This document shows, piece after piece, positions 4,282 through 60,863 of a stretch of DNA of 64,000 bases. Source of the DNA: Maritalea porphyrae (GTDB taxonomy: Bacteria > Pseudomonadota > Alphaproteobacteria > Rhizobiales > Devosiaceae); assembly GCF_027213965.1 (NCBI RefSeq), contig NZ_JAPWGX010000004.1, positions 1 through 64,000 on the forward strand, in the 5' to 3' direction. A program made the position numbers and the translations under genes. Numbering within the stretch: the stretch's first letter is position 1; the number at the start of each line of letters is the position of its first letter. The notes beneath the pieces are model-generated. The model searched no databases. It had not been told where the DNA came from and saw only the letters and a list, made by a program, of their open reading frames with translations.

Positions 4282-5504
4282 CAAAAGAAGGCCTGCAAAC
4301 CAGTTTGTGAACGACCAAGAATTAGCGCATGAACGTCGGCGGTGCCTTCATAGGTGTTCACGGTTTCAAGGTTGATCATATGTCGGATTACATCGAATTC
4401 GTCCGAAATGCCGTTGCCGCCGTGCATGTCACGTGCCATGCGGGCAATGTCTAAGGCTTTCACGCAGTTGTTGCGCTTCATCAATGAGATCATTTCAGGC
4501 GCGGCGTTGGCTTCATTCATCAAACGACCCACGCGCAATGAGCCTTGTAAGCCCAGCGTAATGTCGGTCATCATGTTGGCCAATTTCATTTGGAACAATT
4601 GCATTTGCGCCAAAGGTTTGCCGAACTGTTTGCGCTCCATGCCATATTTGTTGGCGGCATGCCAGCAAGCCTCTGCAGCGCCCATGGCGCCCCAAGAAAT
4701 GCCGTAACGGGCGCGGTTCAAACAACCGAATGGGCCTTTTAGGCCTTCAACATGGGGCAGCAAAGCGTCTTCGCCCACTTCCACATTTTCCATCACGATT
4801 TCACCGGTGATTGATGCGCGAAGGGAAAGTTTTCCGCCGATTTTTGGCGCAGAAAGACCTTTCATGCCTTTGTCCAAAACAAAGCCACGGATTTTATTGT
4901 CATGGGCATCAGACTTGGCCCAAACCACAAACACGTCAGCGATTGGGCTGTTTGAAATCCACATTTTTGTGCCGTTGAGCACATAGCCATTTTCAGTTTT
5001 TGTGGCGCGGGTCAACATGCCGCCAGGGTCTGAACCTGCGTCAGGTTCGGTAAGGCCGAAGCAACCAATTAGGTCACCGGAGATAAGGCCGGGCAAGTAT
5101 TTTTGGCGCTGTTCTTCTGATCCATATGCGTAAATCGGGTAAATCACCAAAGAGGACTGCACCGACATCATGGAGCGGTAGCCGCTGTCGACACGCTCAA
5201 CCTCGCGGGCGATCAGACCGTAGGCCACATAGCCCATGTCCACGCCGCCGTATTCTTCGGGAATAGTTGAGCCAAGCAGACCCATATCGCCCATTTCTTT
5301 GAATAGGGCAGGGTCGGTTGTTTCATCGTTATAGGCTTCGCGCACACGTGGGCGCAGCTTTTCATCAGCAAAGGCGCGGGCAGTATCTTGCACCATGCGC
5401 TCTTCTTCGGTTAGCTGATCATCAAGCCGGAATGGGTCCTGCCAATTGAATGCCCCCAAGTCAGGGCGGTCTTTATCGCGAATGCTAGGGCGCTCAGTTG
5501 TCAC
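4281..5504 (-). CDS. gcdH: Glutaryl-CoA dehydrogenase
   Basis: This 407-residue acyl-CoA dehydrogenase oxidises and decarboxylates glutaryl-CoA to crotonyl-CoA in lysine, tryptophan and aromatic catabolism. The substrate-binding signature [17 protein letters not shown] is at about 109-125. The FAD-binding segment [13 protein letters not shown] is at about 150-162. The catalytic glutamate is in [16 protein letters not shown] (E386). All match glutaryl-CoA dehydrogenases and not short-chain acyl-CoA dehydrogenases. It is first in a three-gene operon; the roughly 230-base upstream gap would hold the promoter. Its product feeds beta-oxidation. Confidence 0.93.
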
Positions 5505-50707: not shown

Positions 50708-51847
50708 CTAGTCTCTTGCTAGTGCAATTTCTGTGTCTTTTTGTGGAACACGCTTGGGATATGGAAGATCAAAAGCGATTTTGTTTTTGCTTCGAAGATC
50801 ACAGAGTATTGCATTTACATGCGGCTTTCGAACCGACACCCGTTCCATTATCAAGTGGATCATTTGGTCCGCCTTTGCAGATGAGTACATCGACAGATAC
50901 TCAAGAATTAAATCCGCTGCTTTTTCACGGTTAGCTTTGCAACCTACACCCTTTCGCTGTTGTTCCATCGCGGCATAGTCAGCGGTTGAAAAGAGATTTG
51001 GACCACTTGTGTCCCTAAGTTCGTGTCTGACGGCCATCTCTTGAAGCTCAACCTTCTGTTGGACGTTCCGAAAAACTTCAAGTCCCTTGGCACTGTGAGT
51101 GCCGAAGAGTAGTCGCATCTTAATGCGCTCTTTGGTTGGCACCATTATCGAGAAGTCAGGCAAAAACTTTGCAATTTTTGCTTGCTTCATGGCCCTCTTC
51201 ATCTGAGACAATATCTTTCGTTCGTTGCTCCAACTAATAGGTAGAGACGCAAATTCGGCGGCCCAATCAGGGTTCACTAGATAACGCCCGAAGGATGCCG
51301 CGACGCCGTCAAATCCAGCGTGTCTGTTTATATGGTCTGACATGAAATTCAACATGAACTCACTACGGTGCTTCTTTAGAAAAGCGAATACCCCGTCATT
51401 TTGGATATTCCAGCCAGTTGGATCAATGAATGTAAACGTAAATCCATTTGTGAGTTTTGAACTAATGGCGTCCAAATTATCTTCAAACTTGCCTTCAAAT
51501 ATGTGGATTTCTGGCCCCTCGACGGTCGTGGCATATGCCTTGAGCTTTTCCACAGAACTTGGATTTGCCTCGCAAAAACAAAACCGAGTTTTTAGGCCAG
51601 AGATGCCTTGTTTTTGCAGAGTATCCCGTACTGCTTCCAGTGTGTTTATCGCTTGATCAAATGAGGCATCCGAGTATTTCGCTTCATCACTCACTTTCCA
51701 AGGCCCAGCAAACGCGTCCACAAAATTGAACACGTTGGAATATCCTTGAAGTGTTTTGAACGCGGCGGCTTTTAGGTATTGGGTTAGAAATGCGTGTTTT
51801 ATGTATGACTGTTCACGGTCTTTATATAGTCCCAAATCGGGCAGCAT
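50708..51847 (-). CDS. tcmP: Three-Cys-motif partner protein TcmP
   Basis: 379 residues. The TcmP signature is visible: LGLYKDREQSYIKHAFLTQYL, then VFNFVDAFAGPWK (about 39-51), an acidic region CFCEANPSS, and the FTFIDPTGW motif resembling a nucleotide- or SAM-binding edge. It lies 54 nt downstream of the three-Cys (Gp37/Gp68) gene, its expected partner. Biochemical activity is not established. Position between tRNA-Met and the prophage tail genes marks it as phage cargo. Confidence 0.85.
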   Translation of the reverse strand: MLPDLGLYKDREQSYIKHAFLTQYLKAAAFKTLQGYSNVFNFVDAFAGPWKVSDEAKYSDASFDQAINTLEAVRDTLQKQGISGLKTRFCFCEANPSSVEKLKAYATTVEGPEIHIFEGKFEDNLDAISSKLTNGFTFTFIDPTGWNIQNDGVFAFLKKHRSEFMLNFMSDHINRHAGFDGVAASFGRYLVNPDWAAEFASLPISWSNERKILSQMKRAMKQAKIAKFLPDFSIMVPTKERIKMRLLFGTHSAKGLEVFRNVQQKVELQEMAVRHELRDTSGPNLFSTADYAAMEQQRKGVGCKANREKAADLILEYLSMYSSAKADQMIHLIMERVSVRKPHVNAILCDLRSKNKIAFDLPYPKRVPQKDTEIALARD

Positions 51848-51901
51848 GGCACACTCTGTAAATATATTTCGAATCTATACTTTGAGTATAGCCGAATTGT
51901 T

Positions 51902-52675
51902 TTACATAGCTACACTTGGCATTTCGTCCCAAACGCGGCCTTTATAACTTCGGCCATTCGCCTTTTTGGATCGGCGCTTGTTGTCCTTGCCCCATGTTCC
52001 CCACTGTTTGAAGAAGAACGCGGTATTGAAATCCAAGCACTGATTGTGGATTTCATCAATCCACTCTTCTTTAATTGGCCTTGCTGCATGGCCGCTTTCG
52101 CCACCAACGATGGCCCAATGGATGCCGGATAGATCAACGTCGCCAACAGCACCAATTAGCGGTTCGAATGATATGAACCTGATCGCTGCCGGAATGTCTC
52201 GAAGTTCGTCAATGCGGTGCGTAACCTCTGAGTTCTCGACGCTCGTACCAAGCCAAACGTTCGGTAGCGGTTTTGGGAAATGCTTGCCGATAATCTGCGC
52301 CATGCGGTCTGGCCGCTTCGTCAAAATTTGATAGTGATGATGCGGCGTTTGGCGCATGACCTCCCATACCTCAAGAATGAACTCATCGCTCACTTCAGGG
52401 TGGAATAGATCACTCATTGAATTGACAAAAATCTTACGCGGCTTACGCCATTTCAGAGGTATTTGAAGGGCGTTGCGGTCCTCGCGTACCACACCGTTCC
52501 AGATGGTGCGCTTACCCGATTTGCGCGTTAGACCCACATATTTCGGCGTACCCATGGCTTCAAGGCGTTTGGCCATCTGCATGGCATAGCAGTTCGTGCA
52601 ACCAGCAGATTGAATGCTACACCCAGCGACTGGGTTCCAAGTTGCATCTGTCCATTCGATCTGAGTTTCAGCCAT
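51902..52675 (-). CDS. Phage Gp37/Gp68 (DUF5131) three-cysteine protein
   Basis: 257 residues. TWNPVAGCSIQSAGCTNCYA carries Cys19, Cys26 and Cys29 in a C-x6-C-x2-C arrangement that suggests an iron-sulfur cluster, possibly radical-SAM-like. IFVNSMSDLFHPEVSDEFI, ILTKRPDRM and WAIVGGESGHAARP are conserved family blocks. Widespread in phages and mobile elements with TcmP. It presumably modifies a nucleic acid or protein; this is inference. Confidence 0.88.
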   Translation of the reverse strand: MAETQIEWTDATWNPVAGCSIQSAGCTNCYAMQMAKRLEAMGTPKYVGLTRKSGKRTIWNGVVREDRNALQIPLKWRKPRKIFVNSMSDLFHPEVSDEFILEVWEVMRQTPHHHYQILTKRPDRMAQIIGKHFPKPLPNVWLGTSVENSEVTHRIDELRDIPAAIRFISFEPLIGAVGDVDLSGIHWAIVGGESGHAARPIKEEWIDEIHNQCLDFNTAFFFKQWGTWGKDNKRRSKKANGRSYKGRVWDEMPSVAM

Positions 52676-52753: not shown

Positions 52754-53587
52754 TCAAATCTTCACCTCAAAATTTGAGATCAAAAGTTCACCCACTTCTT
52801 TGCCTGATTGTGGGTTGACTGTGTAGCGGGTTTTGACGGGTTGCATGCTGAAACGCTCAAAGATGAAACGCACTTCGGGCGTGTCATTTATCGACATCAA
52901 GAATTTGCCTTTGATCGAACCTAGCTGTTGTGCAAGATACTCAAAGTCCGATTTGGAAAACAGGTTTTTGCCATAGTCGTTTTCACAATTCCAGTAGGGC
53001 GGGTCGAGATAGAAAAGCGTTTGGTCGCGATCATAACGGGTGATGCATTGCGCATAGGGCAAGCACTCGATTGTAACGTATGCAAGGCGGTCGTGAACGT
53101 CTTCAAGCTGGCTGGCCAGTGTGTTCAAATTGAAGCGGCTGCTTCGCTCAGTCGCGATGCCAAATGTCTGGCTTGTTGCCTTGCCGCCAAACGCCGTTTT
53201 TTGAAGATAGATGAAGCGCGCTGCGCGTTCTAAATCTGTTAACGTTGTTGGGTCTGTTGCCTTCAATCTTTCGAACTCAGAACGGCTCGAAAGTTGGTAT
53301 TTTAACGTGTCCAAGAATTGCGGATAGTGGCGCTGAAGGATGCGAAACAGGTTGGCAATATCTTTGGAGATGTCGTTGATCACCTCGCATTTGGTGCGCT
53401 TTGTGCGGCGGAAAAATACGCCGCCCATGCCAACAAATGGCTCAACATAATTCTTGTGTGGTACCGCTTCGATAATTGGCACGATTGTTTTTGCGAGTAG
53501 GCGTTTGCCGCCAAGATATGGGGCAACTGGATTGATGGCGATTGTTGAATTGATCTCGTTCATTATTTGTTGGTTTCTCTCAGCCAT
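52754..53587 (-). CDS. D12-class (Dam-type) N6-adenine DNA methyltransferase
   Basis: 277 residues. APYLGGKRLL (about 22-31) and VEPFVGMGGVFF (about 48-59) form the SAM-binding motifs. The catalytic FYLDPPYWNCENDYG contains DPPY (195-198). There is no cognate endonuclease nearby, so it is an orphan methylase, most likely protecting or regulating phage DNA. The start is ATG 53587 or ATG 53563. Recognition sequence not predictable here. Confidence 0.9.
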   Translation of the reverse strand: MAERNQQIMNEINSTIAINPVAPYLGGKRLLAKTIVPIIEAVPHKNYVEPFVGMGGVFFRRTKRTKCEVINDISKDIANLFRILQRHYPQFLDTLKYQLSSRSEFERLKATDPTTLTDLERAARFIYLQKTAFGGKATSQTFGIATERSSRFNLNTLASQLEDVHDRLAYVTIECLPYAQCITRYDRDQTLFYLDPPYWNCENDYGKNLFSKSDFEYLAQQLGSIKGKFLMSINDTPEVRFIFERFSMQPVKTRYTVNPQSGKEVGELLISNFEVKI

Positions 53588-56021: not shown

Positions 56022-56602
56022 TAAACAGCCTCCGGCAAAATCAAAAATTCATGGTGTACTTGGGCGGCAACGGCCACAAAAGTGGGACCAGTGATTTCAA
56101 CACCGAGCCGAAATTCGCTGGTTTGGCTTTTGCGCTTCATCGTTTCAATGACCGCTTTTGACTGGCGAACAGCGCGGATTGACCAAAGCTCGCCTTCGCC
56201 AAATATGTCTTGATCTGTGTTGATCAAAATGTTGTGGGTGTGCGGTGAGCCAACGGGTGTCTGGTCATACCACTGCTCGATTTCAGCTTTGAGGCCAAAC
56301 GCATCGAGCGCGCTTAGAACACCCGGATCAGTGCCTTTTGCTTCATGCAATGGAAAGGCATTTTCGATCAATGTTCGAATGGCCGGTTCGGGCGACCCTT
56401 CAACGTCGATAAATTCACCAATAGACTTTTCGGCCATGACAAGGGGCAAAACTTCAATTGGTTCTTCGCTGGGCTGGCGTTCCATTGCGGTTTGAATGTC
56501 GACGTCACTTAGAACGTTCGCAAACATGGCGAACAAGGCTTGGGTGCGGCCATCAAAGATGCCGGGTGGGATTAGGCGATCTTCAAAACGAAGGTCAGGC
56601 AT
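56021..56602 (-). CDS. Phage tail protein I (baseplate wedge, P2 gpI)
   Basis: 193 residues with the gpI family pattern: LRFEDRLIPPGIF near the start and GVLSALDAFGLKAEIEQWYDQTP in the middle. It overlaps gpJ by 8 nt. Part of the baseplate. Confidence 0.85.
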   Translation of the reverse strand: MPDLRFEDRLIPPGIFDGRTQALFAMFANVLSDVDIQTAMERQPSEEPIEVLPLVMAEKSIGEFIDVEGSPEPAIRTLIENAFPLHEAKGTDPGVLSALDAFGLKAEIEQWYDQTPVGSPHTHNILINTDQDIFGEGELWSIRAVRQSKAVIETMKRKSQTSEFRLGVEITGPTFVAVAAQVHHEFLILPEAV

Positions 56603-57752
56603 TTGCCGCCTCCATGGTTAGATCAATGTCGATCAGCACTGGGAACTCTTGGCCTGCAAGTTGGCGATTGGCGGGGCCGACAATATCAAGATCAATGTCC
56701 TCAACGCCTTCAACCGCGCCGCCAACTTTGTCCAATGCCTTTTTGGCAAGGTAGGGCGCTAGGCGTTTTGCCCAACCGCTCGCGACCTTGTTCAATTCCG
56801 CTTCGATGTCGGCTTGGATAAGGGTTGGATTGCCGCGATACCGGACAGTGCCAGCAATTGTGTAAGTGACCGCTTCAGGTGGTTTACTCGTTAGAGTGTC
56901 GCCTTGTGGGCGTTTTTCTAACGGTGCCATCCATAGATCAATATCGTCCAAAATGGTTTGAGAAGGCGCGCCAGTCTCAAGCAATACGTATATCCAAATA
57001 TGACCCTCTTGCGGTCGCACAACTTTTACGGCGGCAATGGCAGATGAATAGGCCAACACTTGTTCTTTGTAACTTGCCTCGCCACCTGCTTTGGAAATGC
57101 GGTCGTGGGCGTTAAGGGCACGAAGGCGAAGGCTTTGGTCTTCTTCTTCGTCTGCGCCGCCGTTTGAAATGTCGGTGTTTGAAACGCTTAGACCTTCGAC
57201 CGGCTCAACCAAATAGACCAATCTGCCGATCGCAATGCCATTACCTACAAAACCAGCATGGTTCACTGTGGCCGTAACCGAACCGCTGGTTTGACCAGCA
57301 AGGATCAACACATCTTCATTCGTCTGAAAATGCAGTAACGTTGAGGTTAGTTTATCAATGGCAACCTTGGTGCCAGCGGCAATAAACAGGTCGGTGGCCA
57401 AGGCTTCAGCTAAGGTGAACTCAATGGTCGTGACCGCTGGTTGAGCTTTGAGGCGAAACGTTGAATTGTTGGCGGCGGCGATGTCTAAGAACTCGCCTTG
57501 CGCAAACAAAATCCAACGGCGTTCCCAAGCTTCTTGCGCCTCTTGGCAAATGATTGACAGGGCATAAGCGATCAGACGGATAAACACCATGTCGGATTGT
57601 GCAGGATAAAGCTTGCGCTGTGGCCCATCGGGGTGATTTTCAAACCAATCGACAAGCTTGGTGACCCAGCCTTTTGATGAGGTTGTAAAAACCTGTGGCG
57701 CGCCACGTTCGATCAGTTCTTGTGGGGTAAAAGCTTTGAGAAAATTGATCAT
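56595..57752 (-). CDS. Baseplate J family protein (P2 gpJ)
   Basis: 385 residues from ATG 57752, which overlaps the gpW-like stop (ATGA). The family blocks are seen: FEFTLAEALATDLFIAAGTKV, SNGGADEEEDQSLRLRAL, APLEKRPQGDTLTSKPPEAVTYTIAG. Forms the baseplate edge. Confidence 0.9.
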   Translation of the reverse strand: MINFLKAFTPQELIERGAPQVFTTSSKGWVTKLVDWFENHPDGPQRKLYPAQSDMVFIRLIAYALSIICQEAQEAWERRWILFAQGEFLDIAAANNSTFRLKAQPAVTTIEFTLAEALATDLFIAAGTKVAIDKLTSTLLHFQTNEDVLILAGQTSGSVTATVNHAGFVGNGIAIGRLVYLVEPVEGLSVSNTDISNGGADEEEDQSLRLRALNAHDRISKAGGEASYKEQVLAYSSAIAAVKVVRPQEGHIWIYVLLETGAPSQTILDDIDLWMAPLEKRPQGDTLTSKPPEAVTYTIAGTVRYRGNPTLIQADIEAELNKVASGWAKRLAPYLAKKALDKVGGAVEGVEDIDLDIVGPANRQLAGQEFPVLIDIDLTMEAANA

Positions 57753-58150
57753 GCGGCGAGCCTTTGCAAAGACACGTCGGTGAAATAAATCTCTTGCGCC
57801 ACATCTTCGCGCAAACGCCAAGCAACATTGGCCTTATAGTGGTCGCGGCCAACTTGGCTGACATTGACCTTGTGCATGATCACGCGCGGTTCCCATTGCT
57901 CGATAGCGTCCCAGATTTCTTGGGTAATGGCGGGAATGGCGATTTCTGAAGGGCGATCGATATAGGTCAGCGCATCGCAAAACTGGTCAGGCGCTGTTGG
58001 GATCGAAAGCTTGGGCGAAAGAATGATAATGCGGATGGCTTGGTGAATGTCATCAATGCCGACGACGATTTGATCCCAAGGCAAATCATTGCCGGGCTGG
58101 ACTTTTGCTTGCCAATGTAAATGATGGACTTCGCCCATGCCTATACCCAT
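57749..58150 (-). CDS. GPW/gp25 baseplate protein (P2 gpW)
   Basis: About 133 residues. The gp25-like core has LPWDQIVVGIDDIHQAIRIIILSPKLS and FCDALTYIDRP. Likely start ATG 58150, with ATG 58138 or an upstream TTG also possible. Baseplate wedge component coupled to gpJ. Confidence 0.85.
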   Translation of the reverse strand: MGIGMGEVHHLHWQAKVQPGNDLPWDQIVVGIDDIHQAIRIIILSPKLSIPTAPDQFCDALTYIDRPSEIAIPAITQEIWDAIEQWEPRVIMHKVNVSQVGRDHYKANVAWRLREDVAQEIYFTDVSLQRLAA

Positions 58151-58198
58151 ATAAGTGGTAATCAATTACAGGCATGATGGACTTATATATTAGGGAAT

Positions 58199-58217
58199 GC
58201 GCCGGAACAGTTCCGGC
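58199..58217. promoter_or_regulatory. Palindrome GCCGGAA-CAG-TTCCGGC before the opposite-strand gene
   Basis: GCCGGAA (58201-58207) and TTCCGGC (58211-58217) are perfectly inverted. It lies 23 bases before the GTG of the 285-residue gene and could be its operator. A 17-base piece (GCGCCGGAACAGTTCCG) also occurs inside the hydrolase gene near 53824-53840. Confidence 0.4.
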
Positions 58218-58239: not shown

Positions 58240-59097
58240 GTGAATTGGGATCAAGAATTCATAGACGATTTGAGGACGGCCATCGTCGAAATCGATAGTG
58301 TTGACTTAGATGGTCAAGACATACTTCTTGCTTTGGATGCATGCTTAGGCGTGTTGGAAATGGAACTCGACTATGAGCAAATGGTCTATCTCAATGGCGT
58401 GCCAATCAAACGCTTATTGAGAATATGCCTCAAGTTTCTCAAATGGAGCTCCGAAGACATTCTTTCACTGAAAAAATTCGAAAGAGAACAAATTGATGCC
58501 TTTGAGCGTTTTCTTTTCGACGAGCCAAGCTATATTGACACAGTCGATGAAACACTGACCTCCATTCATATGACAGACCAACGGTTTTCAAATGAAGTCA
58601 ACAGCAACGCGAGCAGAAACCGAATTGGGCATTGGGATATTCTAGAGTTCGTACATTTGCTTAAGATCGCATTGGTTAGACGCATCAATGAAATAGGAAG
58701 CAAAGAGAACTTGACATCTATTGTTGGCAAGAAGTCCTCAGTGTCAAAATGGGTTTCCAATCCACTTCATGAGGGCAATGCTTTTGCTAAATACGAACAA
58801 TTTGTAGATGGCTTTGAAAAGCTCGTTATTGAACTTGAAGACTGCAAGTCTTTTTCCAACTCGCCAAGTCTGCACGAGACTAGAAGGCAAAATTTGCTAG
58901 CGATGTCACAAACGATAATTAAACTCTTGGACGCGCCGCTCATCGACGTAGGGTTGGTGCATGATACAAAGTCAGAATTGGAGAAATTTGGTTTTGAGCT
59001 AAAGGACGAAGCAAAAACTGAGGCAAAGAAGTCGTTGGTAGAAGGTGGGAAGTTCATTATCACAGCGCTAATAAAATTACTCTCCGGGGGAGGTTAA
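58240..59097 (+). CDS. Unknown protein encoded opposite to the tail operon (moron)
   Basis: 285 residues from GTG 58240, with GGGGAATAGG upstream. Strongly helical and acidic (LDGQDILLALDACLGVLEMELDYEQ..., FDEPSYIDTVDETLT). The C-terminus reads EGGKFIITALIKLLSGGG, a possible membrane-interacting helix. No family recognised. It is the only plus-strand gene in the prophage part seen; its stop overlaps the gpV stop. Base composition is more AT-rich than neighbours. Likely a lysogeny-expressed cargo gene. Confidence 0.85.
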   Translation: MNWDQEFIDDLRTAIVEIDSVDLDGQDILLALDACLGVLEMELDYEQMVYLNGVPIKRLLRICLKFLKWSSEDILSLKKFEREQIDAFERFLFDEPSYIDTVDETLTSIHMTDQRFSNEVNSNASRNRIGHWDILEFVHLLKIALVRRINEIGSKENLTSIVGKKSSVSKWVSNPLHEGNAFAKYEQFVDGFEKLVIELEDCKSFSNSPSLHETRRQNLLAMSQTIIKLLDAPLIDVGLVHDTKSELEKFGFELKDEAKTEAKKSLVEGGKFIITALIKLLSGGG

Positions 59098-59630
59098 ACC
59101 GGTTCACCACTCAACCCACTGCCCGGCATCGTATCCTTATGCTTGTGATCAGACCCTATATTCACACCATTGTTGGTGATGGTGCCTATGGTCTCAATAT
59201 CACCTTCAAGCTTGATGTTTGGCGCTTCAATCGAAACGTTGGTGGCCGTCACCACAACATTGTTAGCGCCAGACACTGTTACATCGCCTGACTTCTTACC
59301 AACAATAATCGACACCCCACTTTCTGGAAACGAGAAATGCATATTGTCCATGTCGTTTGTGGGTGTGGTGTCCTTCTCAGAATAGATCGTGCCAACGGTC
59401 ATCCCGTCTTCGCCATCCCAATCCACAAGGCATCCGATTTGATCGCCAATGTCGGGCATGTTGAACATCTTGTTTTTTGCACTGCCAGATTGGCCGACGT
59501 TCAGCCAAAAACTTTGATCTTCATCTTCATCGTCAAATTGAACTTTGACCGCACCTGCTTTGCGATCGACAACAATGCCGCGCTTAAAAGGGCTGTTCTT
59601 TTCGTTCTCAATATATCTCGGATTAGACAC
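59094..59630 (-). CDS. Baseplate assembly protein V (spike, P2 gpV)
   Basis: 178 residues starting at GTG 59630. An OB-like N-terminal part (GIVVDRKAGAVKVQFDDEDEDQSFWLN) precedes a triple-beta-helix shaft and the apex motif DHKH (H162, H164), which binds iron in P2 spikes. It overlaps gpD by 8 nt. This is the membrane-piercing tip. Confidence 0.9.
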   Translation of the reverse strand: MSNPRYIENEKNSPFKRGIVVDRKAGAVKVQFDDEDEDQSFWLNVGQSGSAKNKMFNMPDIGDQIGCLVDWDGEDGMTVGTIYSEKDTTPTNDMDNMHFSFPESGVSIIVGKKSGDVTVSGANNVVVTATNVSIEAPNIKLEGDIETIGTITNNGVNIGSDHKHKDTMPGSGLSGEPV

Positions 59631-60615
59631 CTTTAAGCTCCAATGCTGTTGTGTAATTGGCGCGCCGGATTGAGTGGGTAGCTGTGTGAACTAAGTATCG
59701 GCCCTGGTACTTTCCAAAAGTTGGTCCCAATTCAACAATCACACCTGCAATCAACATGACGTCGCCCACCAAAGTTAGGTTTGCGGTACGCTTGTCTTCA
59801 TTGGCTTTTGCCAACCGGCCCTTGGCCAAACGTTCGGCTTGTGCTGGGCTTTCCACACGTTCATCAATCTTGAGGGTATTATTGCCTTTGACCGAACTGT
59901 CGCTGACTTCAGCCTTGATCAGTTCTTTTTTGTTGGGGTCAAGATATTGAACTTTTGCATTGGAAAATGTGCGGTTGGAATTGTCGCGCGCTGACCACTC
60001 GGTGCCTGTAGAAAGTTCGGCGATTTCAATGGTGCGCACGGCGGGGGCCGCTTCGAGTTTATCGCGCCGATGGAACACGATTTGGCGATCTTTAAGCCCG
60101 ACAAAATGCCCATAGTCTTCGCCCAATCGGCGCACAAAACTTAAGTCATGTTCCCGCCGTTGCCGCTTATAGGCAAAATCCATATCGTCAATATCGCCGC
60201 TTAGTCCATAACCATGGCGACCGGCTATATCCGCGCTCATTTTCTTTAAGCTGGTTTCTTCATTGCCTTTGGATTTTTGCGATCGCTGATCGGTGCTTTC
60301 AAAAGCCGATGTGGCTTTAAATTGGAGCTGGTCGTTGCCGCGCGATCCAGATGCGTCGGGAATATCGATTTCAAAAATACCACATGGCATTTGGGCTTGG
60401 CCTTCATAGCCGATCGAAACGCGCACTAAATCGCCTTGTTCTGGTCGCCAAGGCCCGCGCCAAAGCCCGACCGGATCACAAAGGGTGGTTGCGATTTCAT
60501 CAGCCTTGCCATGCAAGTTGTCGGTCCAAGTAAAGTCGACAATGGATTGCGATGTTTCTTGGCCAATACCAACGCCATTGATTTGCATGTCGACAATGGG
60601 AATTGCGCTTGTCAT
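59623..60615 (-). CDS. Late control D / tail hub protein (P2 gpD)
   Basis: 330 residues from ATG 60615, which overlaps the gpX stop (ATGA). Family segments include VDFTWTDNLHGKADEIATTL, KKMSADIAGRHGYG and REHDLSFVRRLGEDYGHFV. Forms the hub below the tail tube to which the V spike attaches. Confidence 0.9.
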   Translation of the reverse strand: MTSAIPIVDMQINGVGIGQETSQSIVDFTWTDNLHGKADEIATTLCDPVGLWRGPWRPEQGDLVRVSIGYEGQAQMPCGIFEIDIPDASGSRGNDQLQFKATSAFESTDQRSQKSKGNEETSLKKMSADIAGRHGYGLSGDIDDMDFAYKRQRREHDLSFVRRLGEDYGHFVGLKDRQIVFHRRDKLEAAPAVRTIEIAELSTGTEWSARDNSNRTFSNAKVQYLDPNKKELIKAEVSDSSVKGNNTLKIDERVESPAQAERLAKGRLAKANEDKRTANLTLVGDVMLIAGVIVELGPTFGKYQGRYLVHTATHSIRRANYTTALELKGV

Positions 60616-60863
60616 TGCAACTGATCTCGTTTCCAAGGGGGCAACATTGTTTGATCAAGTGGTGGCGTTTCAAGCACTGGAATGCGCAAGGTTAAACCCG
60701 CTGGCAGAATGGCTGGATAGGCGTCAAACAGATGCTTGTTCTTGGCCATCAGCAAGTTCATCAAATCAGGATCATTGTAATACTTGTCCGCCAATATATC
60801 CCAACGTTCGCCGGGGGTGGTGATGTGGTCCAAATATTGGCCGGTTTGTTTTGGCGCGGTCAT
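60612..60863 (-). CDS. Tail protein X (P2 gpX, LysM-like)
   Basis: 83 residues from ATG 60863. DHITTPGERWDILADKYYNDPDLMNLLMAKNKHL and AGLTLRIPV match the small P2 gpX/LysM proteins. Sits 2 nt after the gpU stop. Confidence 0.85.
   Translation of the reverse strand: MTAPKQTGQYLDHITTPGERWDILADKYYNDPDLMNLLMAKNKHLFDAYPAILPAGLTLRIPVLETPPLDQTMLPPWKRDQLQ

Follow-up and report, generated by a model that had tools for sequence, protein, structure and literature searches.

An orphan gene reversed within the tail operon of a Mu-like prophage occupies a variable cargo slot and is probably an anti-phage gene

Gene X, an orphan of 285 codons, lies reversed within the tail operon of a Mu-like prophage, between the baseplate genes V and W. 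Because related phages carry different single genes in the same slot, several of them proven defences, X is probably another defence, and we consider it quite likely that it acts against phages. The best explanation overall, held somewhat less firmly but still fairly probable, is that X is one occupant of a hypervariable V-W slot and serves as a defence or exclusion gene that is active while the phage is dormant.

The window, i.e. the whole stretch of 64,000 nucleotides that was analysed, corresponds to C44:1-64000 of a genome of 3.6 Mb. The prophage extends from about 50.6 to 89.4 kb of C44 (about 39 kb) and lies beside a tRNA-Met gene; the part outside the window was read from the loci L010 and L011. 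Beyond the window, it encodes a repressor (C44:88786-89277, plus strand), a Ner-like protein, a ParB-like protein (C44:87468-88292), the transposase proteins A and B, GemA, Mor, and an amidase. Mu-type portal, head and tail genes are also present, and the tail and baseplate genes are located on the minus strand. This gene content, from the repressor to the tail, characterizes a complete-looking Mu-like prophage. The features of the V-W region are compiled in Table 1; the true start of the gpW-like gene is probably the ATG at 58150 or the one at 58138. In the first-pass annotation X was described as the only plus-strand gene of the visible prophage. Within the window X is indeed the only convincing one, but beyond it both the repressor gene and a second antisense gene are encoded on the plus strand. 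The latter (C44:80473-80826; L010:16574-16927, +) is located between GemA and Mor, and its product of 117 aa has a likely signal peptide, is predicted to be secreted, and had no match in Pfam.

Several further loci were observed in and around the prophage. At its right end, the region 50708-52675 (-) encodes TcmP (TIGR04474) followed by DUF5131, which constitute the PADLOC candidate pair PDC-M30A/B, and a D12 methylase is encoded at 52754-53587. Together, the pair and the methylase make this part of the prophage another region of cargo. A gene located between those for the amidase and Mor, at C44:78606-79904 (L010:14707-16005, -), encodes a protein of 432 aa with a weak match to HEPN_Toprim_N (E=3e-4, slightly below the cut-off) and a TOPRIM-like stretch; it is probably also defence cargo. 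Directly past the left prophage end, a type I restriction-modification locus with R, S and M subunits, assigned by sequence, is found at C44:90086-95993.

Table 1. Features of the V-W junction and of gene X (positions in the window)
Feature	Position	Strand	Remarks
gpJ-like baseplate protein	56595..57821	-	next operon gene; PF04865
gpW/gp25-like baseplate wedge	57749..58165	-	right slot edge; PF04965, phrog_43
Candidate weak promoter of gene X	58165..58191	+	ATTACA, 15 bp, TATATT; found by eye, absent from the scan output
Perfect dyad GCCGGAACAGTTCCGGC	58201..58217	.	ancestral V-W junction element, one slot edge
Gene X, orphan cargo gene	58240..59097	+	285 aa, GTG start, TAA stop, antisense to the tail operon
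Predicted helical region, residues ~21-162	58300..58725	+	best VIA-align matches are HEPN toxins; pLDDT 41-54
Rx4H motif R126-N-R-I-G-H131, candidate HEPN RNase active site	58615..58632	+	motif search
C-terminal amphipathic helix of X, KSLVEGGKFIITALIKLLS	59029..59085	+	hydrophobic moment 1.56, mean hydropathy 1.1 (18 residues)
gpV-like baseplate assembly/spike protein	59094..59630	-	left slot edge; closest matches TIGR01644, phrog_9992
gpD-like tail protein	59623..60636	-	searched together with V, W and J for related junctions

The open reading frame of X has the coordinates, strand and frame of the first-pass annotation, and it is almost certainly a genuine gene and a genuine moron. When the region was shuffled 1,000 times by dinucleotides, open reading frames reached 199 codons at most, and thus a frame of 285 codons is not a product of chance. 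The GC contents of the three codon positions (0.50/0.30/0.46) follow a coding pattern, and the codon usage of the frame ranked first among the six frames, at a level equal to that of the neighbouring TcmP cargo gene. The alternative that X is a non-functional frame or a decaying remnant would be in line with the weak ribosome site, the lack of a clear promoter, the neutral codon score and the absence of relatives, but frame length, coding-type position bias and rank among the six frames all speak against it and make it very unlikely. The codon usage of X is foreign, its orientation is opposite to that of its neighbours, and its GC content of 42%, compared to about 50% in the flanks, agrees with the AT-rich composition noted before. 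The overlap with gpV had also been recognized correctly: the TAA of X (59095-59097) and the gpV stop codon (59094-59096, minus strand) overlap by 4 bp, TTAA being common to both stops. A ribosome site of its own, also claimed at that stage, is present but weak, with an AGG 11 nt from the GTG and an AGGGGA farther upstream. In a scan for sigma-70 promoters of gene X, none passed.

X could not be assigned to any family, in accordance with the first-pass annotation. Searches against Pfam, PHROGs, NCBIfam and the PDB sequences yielded no match, and the PADLOC models gave none up to E=1, so that X has no sequence match to a known anti-phage system in that collection. Likewise, no match was obtained in the phages, plasmids, viral_contigs and genome_contigs collections, and no credible match in the genomes of relatives and of the order, class and phylum (about 1,000 genomes searched overall). 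Comparison of X with all retrieved junction loci using tblastn and phmmer --max resulted in noise only, and its own genome contains a single copy. Two matches were discarded, one in G066 (E ~0.003) with 19% identity and internal stops, and one in G878 (E 0.0014) that comprised residues 201-272 only, where the matched sequence looks like that of a membrane protein. As X has no detectable homologue, its function was inferred from the slot alone.

The slot was characterized by comparison of related V-W junctions, a check that had been suggested together with the first-pass annotation. Relatives were collected with profiles of gpJ, gpW and gpD, and the gene borders were set with HMMs of V, W, J and D. 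The gap comparison included 86 distinct phage loci with V, W and J, and D-V could be measured in 85 of them. The V-W gap was at least 500 bp in 33 and at least 700 bp in 28 of the 86 loci, whereas at the neighbouring junctions gaps of at least 500 bp were found only once each (D-V, 1/85; W-J, 1/86). V-W gaps of about 300-600 bp mostly contain structural genes (PAAR, gpU-like), and therefore the count at 700 bp is the cleaner one. The cargo gene was mainly antisense in 20 of the 28 large gaps, as counted manually; because these loci share ancestry, the 28 gaps do not represent independent draws. The nearest relatives, with gpD proteins 46-56% identical, all differ from each other at the V-W site. 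Gap lengths were 953 bp in L040, 1156 bp in L041, 2886 bp in L042, about 990 bp in L043 and L044, 740 bp in L045, 1428 bp in L046, 982 bp in L047 and 1093 bp in L068. In some relatives the slot is empty, with a gap of about 50 bp, and the closest such site, in L066, has 48 bp. X is thus absent or replaced in close relatives while its flanks are conserved, and turnover at V-W exceeds that at D-V and W-J. The 4-bp stop overlap with gpV was also found for unrelated cargo (L019, L044, L046, L130 and L132), and this recurrence identifies the gpV stop codon as the left edge of the slot.

These results also bear on the possibility that X is a part of the virion or of tail assembly, e.g. a spike tip or a chaperone, conserved together with V and W. 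The first-pass annotation had named conservation as a structural part among the findings that would overturn its proposal; instead, the relatives are either empty at this site or carry non-homologous genes. X does occupy the same place as a PAAR spike-tip gene in RR1-B, L022, L031 and L033, but X is antisense and PAAR is not, X is absent or replaced in all relatives, and the gpV protein of this prophage has its own HKH tip-like ending. A structural role is thus largely refuted and retains hardly any probability. Replacement of PAAR by X was ruled out as well, because PAAR is encoded on the sense strand and, in L031 and L035, is present in addition to an antisense cargo gene.

The V-W slot was found to contain 14 or more unrelated gene types, and the occupants are mostly antisense, AT-rich and single. 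The antisense cargo included bSEFIR (E=8e-96) in L042, where PIN_12 was also matched, PD-T7-4 in L130 and L132 (E=5e-78 and 2e-82, respectively), DUF2971 in L068, a Trypco2-like gene slightly below the Pfam cut-off in L043, DUF2513 together with one gene lacking an assignment in L046, and SLFN_AlbA_2 (Schlafen/AlbA_2 family) in L016. Sense cargo comprised an AbiP-like gene in L040 (E=6.5e-11), membrane proteins in L020 and L060, and a D12-like methylase in L100, which was assigned by its resemblance to the prophage's own methylase. PD-T7-4 was discovered through functional selection for phage defence (PMC9519451). In this sample, all V-W occupants with a clear functional family match were defence-related or a DNA methylase. 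The variability of the junction and its unrelated occupants, with the anti-phage families bSEFIR and PD-T7-4 among them, characterize it as a cargo and defence hotspot with mostly single genes. The earlier proposal that X is a moron with a role in exclusion or abortive infection is supported by this hotspot and by the anti-phage matches of its occupants. X could also be a moron with a non-defence role in host fitness, metabolism or regulation, for which occupancy of the slot would be incidental. X is an orphan, and the occupants of L020, L041, L045, L047 and L060, as well as the family described below, have no defence assignment; however, the occupants with a clear family match all point to defence or DNA methylation, and we regard a non-defence role as improbable.

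The most common occupants belong to an antisense membrane and coiled-coil family, which was found in L014, L017, L019, L023, L031, L032, L035, L052, L072 and L085. It has a conserved N-terminal membrane/coiled-coil module and a hypervariable C-terminus, and is probably a separate defence or exclusion family. The frequency of this family in related slots, the strong amphipathic helix at the C-terminus of X, and a Pseudomonas Mu-like phage with exclusion genes that are expressed in lysogens (PMC9936078) are consistent with X being a superinfection-exclusion or otherwise membrane-acting protein. Such a protein would use the C-terminal helix to block DNA entry or to depolarise the cell, and it would have no RNase activity. 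However, X is not homologous to the membrane and coiled-coil family and lacks its N-terminal transmembrane/coiled-coil module, and an Rx4H motif lies within its predicted helical bundle. In addition, the C-terminal helix, which had been described as hydrophobic, turned out to be amphipathic and not transmembrane: the maximal 19-residue Kyte-Doolittle value of X is 1.3, and no transmembrane helix was predicted. We consider membrane-acting exclusion rather unlikely, though less so than a non-defence role.

The palindrome upstream of X that had been reported is real and perfect, but it belongs to the phage junction and is not an element of gene X itself. Five sites with at most two mismatches were found in the 3.6-Mb genome, all of them within the prophage (C44 positions 53827, 58201, 64478, 70530 and 78455). 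The five GCCGGAACWGTTCCGNM copies are spaced 4-8 kb apart, and their orientation is identical when judged by the better-kept left arm; the ParB-like protein of the phage might conceivably bind them. In 37 of the 86 loci, a dyad of the form CGGA-n2-8-TCCG was present upstream of gpW at a distance of at most 110 nt, compared to 22 of 1,409 control windows; the length of the dyad loop varies from 0 to 5 nt. The dyad was also found at the empty V-W sites of L018, L025, L027, L051, L057 and L066. Because it is common to filled and empty junctions, it is a feature of the junction and not a part of X, and a function as operator or terminator of X was ruled out. Cargo occupies the interval between the gpV stop codon and the dyad; for example, the cargo end and the dyad are at 4912 and 4915 in L041, and at 1683 and 1684 in L045. 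In some Rhizobiales relatives, a T-run comes directly after the dyad when read on the V-to-W strand, and the arrangement resembles an intrinsic terminator; in this phage the T-run is missing. A function as operator of the early promoter was also rejected, as no match with at most three mismatches was found near 88.4-88.8 kb.

With regard to the activity of X, an HEPN-type RNase effector is suggested by motif and models, a possibility that we regard as nearly evenly balanced. HEPN RNases are defined by the motif Rx4-6H, in which the R is usually followed by N, D or H (PMC3710099). X carries one Rx4H motif (RNRIGH), in which the R is followed by the polar residue N. In shuffled X, the chance of finding R[NDH]x3-4H was 6.6% and that of RNx3H was 1.1%, for a pattern that was chosen post hoc. 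Single-sequence AlphaFold predicted a helical protein for full-length X (pLDDT 41.5), and the fragment model, likewise of low confidence, was also helical (pLDDT 54). In the latter, the motif terminates one helix and precedes the long helix 131-162, which resembles the arrangement in HEPN domains, a four-helix fold that carries the motif where helix 3 ends. The top three VIA-align matches of the full-length model, which has a low pLDDT, were all HEPN toxins: 8yuf (Z 6.3, rmsd 3.4, 102 aligned), 8xdj (6.2) and 7ae8 (6.1). With the fragment model, the HEPN toxins 7ae8, 7ae9 and 7ae6 (Z 5.0-5.1) made up three of the top six matches, and the HEPN-like YutE was also among the matches. However, helical bundles can attain such Z scores, including values of about 6, by chance, and other helical folds share the band of Z 4-6, so that the presence or absence of a fold in VIA-align proves little. 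Foldseek with the fragment model yielded nothing at E <= 0.001, the HEPN families in Pfam did not match X even at E=10, and hhalign of X with HEPN relatives, using a small and poor profile, gave a score of 15.1, below the 95% value of 17.3 for shuffled sequences. With Z scores in the chance range and neither Foldseek nor profile support, HEPN is a lead and not an established membership.

Taken as a defence gene, X would have a promoter of its own that is active in the lysogen, when the late operon is silent. Upon induction, by analogy with Tai and Tha, late transcription would run head-on through X and shut it down, and the phage would thus remain unharmed by its own weapon. With less certainty, residues ~21-162 might form an HEPN-like bundle with RNRIGH as the active site. 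The C-terminal helical half could sense the invader, or could attach X to the membrane or to a partner. Once triggered, X would arrest the infected cell or kill it. In its widest form, the proposal is that Mu-like phages have, at their V-W junction, a defence hotspot not described before, with a built-in antisense switch, by which any toxic effector placed there is active in the lysogen and is silenced upon induction without a dedicated inhibitor, that X is a new orphan HEPN-type effector, and that the membrane and coiled-coil family serves in defence or exclusion and has so far gone unrecognised; this combination is tentative. If it is true, the V-W locus, which is short, PCR-sized, and bounded by two conserved tail genes, would allow the harvest of new anti-phage genes, and most of the gene types already obtained from the slot in this sample are uncharacterised. 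It would also provide a testable general idea, namely that antisense placement in the late operon is itself a safety catch that spares the prophage's progeny. The general principle of antisense immune genes and of prophage defence hotspots is already known, and no description of the V-W location, its scale or its occupants was found in the literature searched, the coverage of which excluded most subscription journals.

Among known systems, Tai of phage phi80 is an immune gene that is reversed within the late operon, is on in the lysogen, and goes down with late transcription (PMC11364771). With respect to layout, Tai and X are both single genes reversed inside a late operon. However, Tai is found in another phage type and at another position, and it has a paired counter-defence gene in the operon, whereas none is visible beside X. 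In the Tha/Ith system of Staphylococcus prophages, the genes overlap in antisense and the immune gene is reduced upon induction (PMC11087260). Tha and X are both prophage-encoded proteins of about 300 aa with mostly unrecognisable sequences and one R-N-x3-H motif. Antisense transcription avoids autoimmunity in the case of Tha, and by analogy the same role is proposed for X. In contrast, the HEPN domain of Tha is C-terminal and confidently modelled, while the motif of X lies in the N-terminal half of a poor model. Expression of Tha comes from the cI operon, while X is opposite to the tail operon. The hotspots of P2 and P4 resemble the V-W slot in being small loci between two conserved phage genes with a rapid turnover of single defence genes (PMC9122126, PMC9519451). 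They are, however, located beside cos, or in the interval that separates the replication endonuclease gene from the portal gene, whereas the V-W slot lies inside a Mu-like baseplate operon and its cargo is mostly antisense. Likewise, the regions of genomic plasticity of Pseudomonas Mu-like phages are fixed places at which accessory genes such as morons and anti-CRISPRs are found. They contain short ORFs and belong for the most part to the left arm of siphophage genomes, and the part of the published account consulted does not list a V-W baseplate slot (PMC4378225). Although their sequences have no similarity to X, PD-T7-4 and bSEFIR, which are validated or listed anti-phage systems, occupy the identical antisense V-W slot in related phages.
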